From assembly GCA_902573425.1 (NCBI GenBank), contig CACGJO010000005.1, positions 1-64,000 of the forward strand: a stretch of DNA of 64,000 bases, read 5' to 3'. Source of the DNA: an uncultured Pelagibacteraceae bacterium (GTDB taxonomy: Bacteria > Pseudomonadota > Alphaproteobacteria > Pelagibacterales > Pelagibacteraceae). Every line of letters begins with the position of its first letter. Position 1 is the stretch's first letter. This document shows positions 11,126 through 52,488 of the stretch, piece after piece. The position numbers were made by a program, and so were the translations under genes. Under the pieces are notes generated by a model. It ran no database searches. It saw only the letters and a list, made by a program, of their open reading frames with translations, and was not told the origin of the DNA.

Positions 11126-12407
11126 ATGAAAAAGAAACTAAATATTGCTATTATTGGTTTAGGCAACATAGGTTCCTACCTTTATACTTTTTTAAAACAA
11201 AAAAGGAAAATTCTCTCCAAAAAATACCAAGTGGATTTAAATATTGCTTTTATATGTGACAAAAAAAGAAAATTTAAAGTACCAAAAAACAAATGGTTAA
11301 AAAATTATTTAGATGCACCCAAAATTAGCAAAATAGACTTAATAGTAGAGTTAATAGGAGGTGCAGAGGGACCAGCAAAAAAATTAGTATTCTCTGCATT
11401 AAAGAATAAAAAACATGTTGTTACAGCCAACAAGGCACTTATATCTAAATATGGAAATCAATTAGCAAAAATTGCTGAAAAAAATAAAGTAAATTTAGAA
11501 TATGAAGCTGCAGTTTGTGGAGGAATTCCTGTCATCAGAAGTATTAAAGACGGTTTGATAACGAATGAAATTAATAAAGTTTATGGAATATTTAATGGAA
11601 CAACCAACTTTATATTATCATCTATGGATTTTGATAAATTGAATTTTGATTCCGCACTTAAAAAAGCACAGGGTCTCGGTTATGCAGAAAGAAATCCCAA
11701 TGCAGACTTAGCTGGACTTGATGTTGCTGACAAACTAAGGATACTTTCAGCACTATGTTTTAATAGCGTAATAGATTATAAAAATATTCATATCGAGGGC
11801 ATAAACAATATAGATCAATTCGATGTTCAATACGCAAATCAACTTGGATACAAAATTAAACTACTTGGCCTAGCAGAAAGAAATAATAAATTTATTGTTC
11901 AAAAAGTTTTTCCAGCCCTACTTAAAAATAATTCAAACACAGCTAAAATTAATGGTGTATTAAATAACGTTGTTTTAGAGGGCAAACCAATAGGGAGAGT
12001 AGAAATGATAGGCGAGGGTGCTGGTCCGAAAGCAACTGTTTCAGCAATATCATCAGATATTATATCAATAATGAAGGGTGGTATTAAATTACCATTCAAC
12101 ACGCCAATAAATAAAAAAAATAAATATAAATTTAAAGATATTTCAAATGAAAATTACGAAGCTTATTTAAGATTTGATTTGAATTTAAAAAATATGAATT
12201 TAGCCCAAAATATAATTGGTAAATTAAAAAAAAAATAGATTTCTTATTCAAAAAATTATAAAAAAAAAGAATACTTTCAATAGACTTTTTTCTTTAATAT
12301 TAATCACAAAACAATCTAAAAACATGAAACTTAACAGAATGATAAAAATTTTCAAAAATAAAAAAATATATAAGAGTGTAAAATTTATAAGAATCGAAAA
12401 AGTTTGA
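11126..12407 (+). pseudogene. hom: Homoserine dehydrogenase; apparent frameshift in an A10 tract (12226-12235). First ORF 11126-12238; ACT-domain tail continues in the +1 frame to TGA 12405-12407
   Basis: GNIGSYLY, TANKALIS, GIFNGTTNFIL and GLDVADKLRIL motifs; tail NRFLIQKIIKKKNTFNRLFSLILITKQSKNMKLNRMIKIFKNKKIYKSVKFIRIEKV in the shifted frame, ending flush with glpX ATG. Confidence 0.85.
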
Positions 12408-13355
12408 ATGACACTTAAAAACATCTACTTGGATCAATTTATTAAAGTAGTAGAAAGAGCTGCATATGGAGCTTCAAAATTTAGAGGAAAAAATGATAAA
12501 ATTGCAGCTGATCAAGCTGCTGTTGATGAAATGAGAACAGAAATAAATAAAATTAATATTAAAGGAAGGGTTGTTATCGGTGAAGGAGAAATGGATGAAG
12601 CCCCAATGTTATTTATTGGTGAAAATGTGGGTACAGGAATTGGTGAAGAAATCGATATAGCAGTAGATCCACTAGAAGGAACAAATTTTACTGCAAAAAA
12701 TTTACCAAATGCTATTTCAGTACTAGCAGTTACAAGAAAAGGTGACTTATTGTCTGCTCCAGATACATACATGGAGAAAATTGCAGTCGGACCAGATCTT
12801 CCAAATAATCTTTTAGATTTAGATAATTCGGTTGAAAAAAATATAAAACTTCTTGCTGAAGCTAAAAATACTCAACCCGATAAACTAACTGCATGCGTTC
12901 TTAAAAGAAGCAGACACGAAAGAATTATTCAATCTTTGGAAAAATTGAATGTGAAAATTAATTATATTCAAGATGGAGATGTTACAGGTGTTATCTCTGT
13001 TGTTGATAATAATTCAAATACAGATATTTATTTAGGAGTAGGTGGTGGTCCAGAGGGAGTATTAGCTGCCGCAGCACTTGATTGCTTAGGCGGACAAATG
13101 CAAACTAGACTTGTTTTAAGCGATGACGCTGAGGTAAAAAGGGCAAAAAAATTGGGGATTACTGATTTAAAAAGAAAGTATAATATTTCCGATATGGTAA
13201 AAGGTGATGTCATATTTTGTGCAACAGGAGTTACAGACGGAGATATGTTGAAAGGCATAAACCTAATAAATGATAATGAATTTGAAGCTACTACATTTGC
13301 ATTACATAAAAGTCAAAAAATATCAAAGATTGTAAAAAATATTATAAAAAAATGA
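12408..13355 (+). CDS. glpX: Fructose-1,6-bisphosphatase class II (GlpX)
   Basis: VIGEGEMDEAPMLFIGE, DPLEGTN, GVGGGPEGVLAAAAL motifs. Confidence 0.96.
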   Translation: MTLKNIYLDQFIKVVERAAYGASKFRGKNDKIAADQAAVDEMRTEINKINIKGRVVIGEGEMDEAPMLFIGENVGTGIGEEIDIAVDPLEGTNFTAKNLPNAISVLAVTRKGDLLSAPDTYMEKIAVGPDLPNNLLDLDNSVEKNIKLLAEAKNTQPDKLTACVLKRSRHERIIQSLEKLNVKINYIQDGDVTGVISVVDNNSNTDIYLGVGGGPEGVLAAAALDCLGGQMQTRLVLSDDAEVKRAKKLGITDLKRKYNISDMVKGDVIFCATGVTDGDMLKGINLINDNEFEATTFALHKSQKISKIVKNIIKK

Positions 13356-50773: not shown

Positions 50774-52488
50774 ATAAATTTAATAAAAAAAAATTACCAA
50801 GTAGACATACATCTTTAGGCGCAGATAAAGCTCCTCAAAGATCCTTTTATTATGCAATGGGTGAAACTGAAAAAGATGTAGCAAAACCTTTCGTTGGTGT
50901 TGTTTCTACATGGAACGAAGCTGCTCCGTGTAATATTGCACTAATGAGACAAGCTCAATCAGTTAAAAAGGGCGTCAAATTTTCTGGCGGAACACCAAGA
51001 GAATTTTGCACTATAACTGTTACTGATGGTATCGCTATGGGGCATGAAGGAATGAAATCTTCTTTGGTGTCTCGAGATGTTATTGCTGACTCAACAGAGT
51101 TAACTGTTAGAGGACATTGTTATGATGCATTAGTAGGAGTTGCCGGTTGTGATAAATCTTTACCAGGCTTAATGATGGCAATGCTTAGACTTAATGTACC
51201 AAGTGTGTTCATTTATGGCGGATCGATTCTTCCTGGCAGATATAATGGAAAAGATGTAACAGTTTTAGATGTATTCGAGGGCGTAGGAAAATATTCTTCA
51301 GGCAAAATGAGTGAGCATGCACTGAGAAAATTGGAATTAAAAGCTTGTCCTAGTGCTGGAGCATGCGGTGGACAATTTACTGCAAATACTATGGCATGTG
51401 TATCTGAGGCTATTGGTTTAGCTTTACCTTATTCTGCAGGAACACCAGCACCATACGGACAGAGGGATAAATATGCTTTGCAAAGTGGTAAGGCAGTAAT
51501 GAATTTATTAAAAAGAAATATTAGACCAAGAGATATTGTTTCAAGAAAATCTTTAGAGAATGCAGCAACTATAGTTGCGGCCACAGGAGGTTCAACTAAC
51601 GCAGCGTTGCATTTACCAGCTTTAGCAAATGAAATAGGAATTAAGTTTGATTTAATGGACGTTGCAAAAATTTTTAAAAAAACACCTTATCTCGCAGATT
51701 TAAAACCTGGCGGAAGATATGTTGCAAAAGATATGTGGAAAGCCGGGGGTGTTCCTATGCTATTAAAAACTTTGTTAGATGGCGGATATATTCATGGAAA
51801 CTGTATGACGGTTACAGGTAAAACAATGAAAGAAAATCTTAAAAAAGTTAAATTTAATAGTAAACAAAAGGTTATGAGAAAATATAATAATCCGTTATCA
51901 AATGATGGGGGCGTTGTAGGATTGAAAGGTAATCTTGCACCGGACGGAGCAATTGTAAAAGTTGCAGGGTTAAAAAAACTTCAATTTACTGGTAGAGCAA
52001 GATGTTTTGATACTGAGGAGTCTGCTTATAAAGCAGTTTTAAAAAGAAAATATAAAGATGGAGATATTATAGTTATCAGATATGAGGGTCCTAAAGGAGG
52101 TCCGGGTATGAGAGAAATGCTTCAGACTACTGGAGCAATTTATGGTCAAGGCAAAGGTGAAAAAGTTGCATTAATAACGGATGGAAGATTTTCTGGAGCA
52201 ACTAGAGGTTTTTGCATTGGACATGTAGGTCCAGAAGCATCGGTAGGAGGTCCAATTGCATTATTGAAAAATGGAGACATAATTCATATAGACGCAAAAA
52301 GAGGAACAATTAAAGTTGATCTCTCAAGAAAAGAGTTATCAAAAAGGAAGAAAAATTGGAAACCAAAAAAAATCAATTTTGGAAATGGAACGCTTTGGAA
52401 GTATGCACAAACAGTTGGACCAGCCTATTTAGGCGCGTCAACACACCCTGGTGGTAAAGAAGAAGTTAAGTGTTACGCAGATATTTAA
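50770..52488 (+). CDS. ilvD: Dihydroxy-acid dehydratase
   Basis: [48 protein letters not shown]. Confidence 0.97.

Follow-up and report, generated by a model that had tools for sequence, protein, structure and literature searches.

Genes of Buchnera and Blochmannia that are frameshifted at poly(A) tracts are rescued by transcriptional slippage, with 12–50% of the transcripts being corrected (reviewed in PMC5009743). The rates of both insertion and deletion climb exponentially with run length, and +1 insertions dominate in the A/T runs of Buchnera (PMC5574713). Among homoserine dehydrogenases with known structures some carry a C-terminal ACT domain (PDB 3mtj and 6dzs), and others, from Thermus (2ejw), Archaeoglobus (3do5) and Sulfolobus (4ydr), are short chains of about 300–332 residues that match the core alone. 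Given these natural short chains, the enzyme family can do without the ACT domain. A literature search on homopolymer frameshifts in SAR11 bacteria found none on this subject.

The gene described here, hom, encodes homoserine dehydrogenase in an uncultured Pelagibacteraceae bacterium and is interrupted at a run of ten As. It lies in a stretch of 64,000 nucleotides (the window) of a genome that comprises 985,842 bases in 19 contigs and is 79.5% complete. The gene resembles the rescued genes of Buchnera and Blochmannia in its one-base indel, its long A run and its AT-rich genome, but a change of −1 or +2 is needed to restore its frame, and its tail carries no sign of maintained function. The features of the locus are listed in the table.

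Features of the hom locus (positions in the window)
Feature	Position	Strand	Basis
hom, homoserine dehydrogenase, 370 aa as assembled; NAD-binding and catalytic core complete, followed by the opening strand and helix of the ACT domain	11126..12238	+	Pfam NAD_binding_3 and Homoserine_dh above cut-off; 98–87% identity to four intact 426-aa proteins
A10 run, frameshift site, one A more than the A9 of G025 and G013	12226..12235	+	Alignments with relatives
Premature TAG stop resulting from the frameshift	12236..12238	+	Reading of the sequence
Rest of the ACT domain, out of frame (+1 frame, NRFLIQ... to the TGA at 12405-12407)	12234..12407	+	Profile match to the ACT domains of relatives; ACT fold in an intact relative
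glpX-like gene	12408..13355	+	ATG adjoins the original hom stop; intact relatives arranged alike

As assembled, the open reading frame ends in ...IIGKLKKK*, the +1 frame has no stop between the run and the original TGA, and the single extra A removes the last 57 residues of the enzyme. This arrangement had been proposed in a sequence-only reading, whose coordinates and frames were correct, as were its identification of the gene (Pfam Homoserine_dh, 4e-51) and its placement of the DNA in SAR11, the close relatives being Pelagibacteraceae. Nine As restore a single intact frame, as it had predicted, with a product of 426 aa where about 427 aa had been given; a run of 12 As gives 427 aa and a run of 11 As a dead end of 378 aa. 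The name glpX for the adjoining gene was carried over from that reading. The premature stop places 169 untranslated bases (12239-12407) ahead of glpX, which could weaken any translational coupling between the two genes. Promoter and terminator scans gave no signal above that of shuffled sequences. The pathway otherwise appears to be intact, the frames of thrB, thrC and the aspartokinase gene being open.

Homologues of hom were found in 50/61 of the relative genomes searched and in 25/31 within the genus. The four closest relatives (G025, G008, G013 and G006) encode an intact protein of 426 aa that is 98, 96, 92 and 87% identical, respectively, to the truncated protein over its length. At the frameshift site the run is A9 in G025 and G013, and A8 with a neighbouring substitution in G008 and G006. 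The closest relative, G025, is colinear with the window at hom, and given its A9 run and intact frame, together with the run lengths in the other three relatives, the frameshift in hom is not due to chance. In a wider search at the order level 355 of the 398 genomes had a match, and among the matches listed internal stops were present only in the hom gene of this genome. The sequence-only reading had held that a uniform A9 in close relatives would make the tenth A an error; between species the comparison came out that way, with A9 in two relatives and A8 in the other two, but these relatives belong to other species, and the result is compatible with an error and a real mutation alike. As a separate observation, the distant G060 (L200, G060:C2:34300-36000) carries an independent frameshift within the ACT domain of its hom gene near CCAAAAGAAAAAATTTC, where there is no long run; its DKAGVM motif is still present and the ACT domain continues in another frame.

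The truncated protein is a homoserine dehydrogenase, both the catalytic and the NAD-binding domains scoring above the curated cut-offs (PF00742 and PF03447, 173.6 and 56.7 bits versus 22.9 and 24). Residues K103, E188, D194, D199 and K203 are invariant across the aligned relatives and unchanged in the truncated protein; they are predicted to be catalytic, as in the yeast enzyme. The natural short homoserine dehydrogenases end at the core, whereas the truncated protein extends beyond it by one strand, one helix and a poly-lysine terminus. The structures 3mtj and 6dzs have the same core as the intact relatives and also agree with them in overall fold, C-terminal ACT domain included (TM 0.86–0.90), but in this genome the ACT domain breaks off behind its first helix, and no member of the clade has the effector motif.

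The tail is genuinely homologous to ACT domains, as had been proposed from its sequence. The tails of the intact clade members matched the ACT domains of other relatives in a profile–profile comparison (hhalign, probability 97.9, E 6e-13), and the intact G025 protein, modelled with AlphaFold (pLDDT 90.8), shows the ACT topology beta-alpha-beta-beta-alpha-beta (strands at 343-353, 374-382, 387-394 and 415-423, helices at 359-369 and 399-410), with the frameshift position falling just past the first ACT helix. The Pfam ACT model matched one relative outside the clade (1.2e-7) and gave no score for the tails of the intact clade members or for the tail of this hom gene alone. A hit to DUF3960 in the tail (E 0.007) was below the cut-off and was set aside as composition noise. 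In ACT domains generally the DKxGVLS loop is effector-binding. This motif and two distal residues, a Gln and a His, do not vary among the ACT domains sampled from the other relatives but are lost in 4/4 intact clade members, in which the DKxGVL between the first strand and the helix is replaced by LKNMNL or VKNTSL. Given these losses and the silence of the Pfam ACT model, it is doubtful that the ACT domain of this clade would sense threonine, even where it is intact. The earlier suggestion that slippage would yield two enzyme forms differing in threonine feedback is for the same reason poorly founded, and a threonine-feedback switch was discarded as the main reading.

The changes since the split from G025 were polarised with outgroups and counted for the catalytic region and the tail. 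On the lineage of this genome the catalytic region gained 11 synonymous and 6 nonsynonymous changes and the tail 0 and 6, respectively; for the tail the expected number of nonsynonymous changes is 7.0 under neutrality, 1.8–3.1 at the background constraint of the clade and 1.0 at the constraint of the catalytic region. In a codon model omega was 0.041 for the core, 0.125 for the tail on other branches and 0.45 for the tail on this branch (likelihood ratio test, p ~0.015 with a fixed branch scale and ~0.06 with a free scale), a weak test in that it draws on 6 substitutions only. The tail also evolves fast and under weak constraint in the intact relatives, and the core itself has 6 nonsynonymous changes on this lineage versus 0 on the G025 lineage. 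Taken together, the constraint on the tail leans slightly towards a real and tolerated truncation.

To place the break among others of its kind, genes were compared in both directions between this genome (G000), 597 kb of G025 and 727 kb of G008. Four further one-base frameshifts at A/T runs were found in G000, in maeB-like (malic enzyme), nhaA-like, cfa-like (cyclopropane-fatty-acid synthase) and pnp genes, the names of the malic-enzyme and nhaA genes being taken from their sequences. They lie outside the window at C14:~4583, C7:~44963, C1:~297889 and C1:~351343. The dN/dS values against G008 were at most 0.12 on either side of all four breaks, a degree of constraint that would be expected for a very recent mutation as well as for a technical error. 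G008 has run breaks of its own, in a penicillin-binding-protein-like gene, nadD and others, and run-length frameshifts are thus a recurring class in these assemblies. Runs of at least 10 A or T are not unusual within open reading frames of at least 100 aa, numbering 126 in this genome; among comparable genes only hom is broken at such a run, which indicates that runs of this length are usually assembled in frame. At C7:~52236-52278 an rlpA-like lipoprotein gene is thrown out of frame by a 16-base length difference versus G008.

Our preferred explanation, to which we assign a probability of roughly one half, is that the expansion from A9 to A10 is present in the cell and truncates the enzyme to 370 aa by plain mutation and not as a recoding device. 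It is slightly favoured over an artefact in which one A was overcounted during amplification, sequencing or assembly, the true gene having A9 and encoding the normal 426-aa enzyme of the clade. Such an overcount is a serious contender, if somewhat short of an even chance. It would parallel the homopolymer frameshift errors of draft assemblies, to which the four other A/T-run breaks in G000 and the similar ones in G008 bear a likeness, and the nearest relatives appear from their isolate names to be single-cell assemblies. The breaks in pnp and the other genes, which are under strong purifying selection, make run-length errors a live class and count against a real truncation. However, hom is the exception in that the four other breaks sit in constrained regions, whereas this one falls within a terminal domain that had already decayed and in which a real truncation would be tolerated. 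Its tail looks neutral on this lineage, as the other broken genes do not, and it alone among comparable genes is broken at one of the 126 long runs.

Two further explanations would retain the full-length enzyme. RNA polymerase might slip on the A run, so that some transcripts would carry A9 or A12, both of which restore the frame, and would yield the complete protein as in Buchnera and Blochmannia. Slippage does occur in AT-rich bacteria on A runs as long as this one (PMC5009743), at rates that rise exponentially with run length (PMC5574713). The sequence-only reading had put this forward, but the case is less simple, since the frame is regained only in transcripts that are one base shorter (−1) or two bases longer (+2), and the commonest slippage product, +1, would be the A11 dead end; in Buchnera transcript insertions in runs numbered 151/157 and deletions only 16/57 (PMC5574713). 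Selection for a rescued product would moreover require conservation of the tail, to which the few changes on this lineage do not point, and rescue by slippage, at whatever level, has no support here and is improbable. Still less credible is programmed +1 ribosomal frameshifting producing two regulated forms of the enzyme. The sequence would permit it, since a +1 slip of peptidyl-tRNA on the AAA ahead of the TAG would enter the frame of the tail. Against it, the hom genes of the relatives are all read in one frame with no conserved shift site, local and downstream structures are not strong (−1.6 and −3.5 kcal/mol), and the missing effector motif and the drifting tail speak against two regulated forms; it was rejected for want of a conserved site and of structure. 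Given that the close relatives are intact and that the lost regulatory domain had already decayed in the lineage, no new mechanism is involved, and the break comes down to ordinary mutation or to a slip in sequencing.

If the truncation is real, as we prefer, a one-base expansion of the run in hom would have left a 370-aa homoserine dehydrogenase with its catalytic core complete. The part lost would be the second half of the C-terminal ACT domain, and because the effector site had already decayed in the clade, this loss would have been tolerated and the out-of-frame remainder left to drift. The 370-aa enzyme is probably active and free of threonine feedback control, and the length of the A10 run is inferred to be biologically real.

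For a lone homopolymer frameshift of this kind, comparison with relatives, with the rest of the genome and with branch-specific constraint should precede any appeal to rescue by slippage. An erroneous break in hom would be one among several in this assembly. A real truncation would represent a step-by-step loss of feedback control by threonine in an ocean bacterium with a streamlined genome: tentatively, a free-living SAR11 clade may have lost the effector site of the ACT domain, and one lineage may then have shed the domain by poly(A) expansion in the course of genome streamlining.
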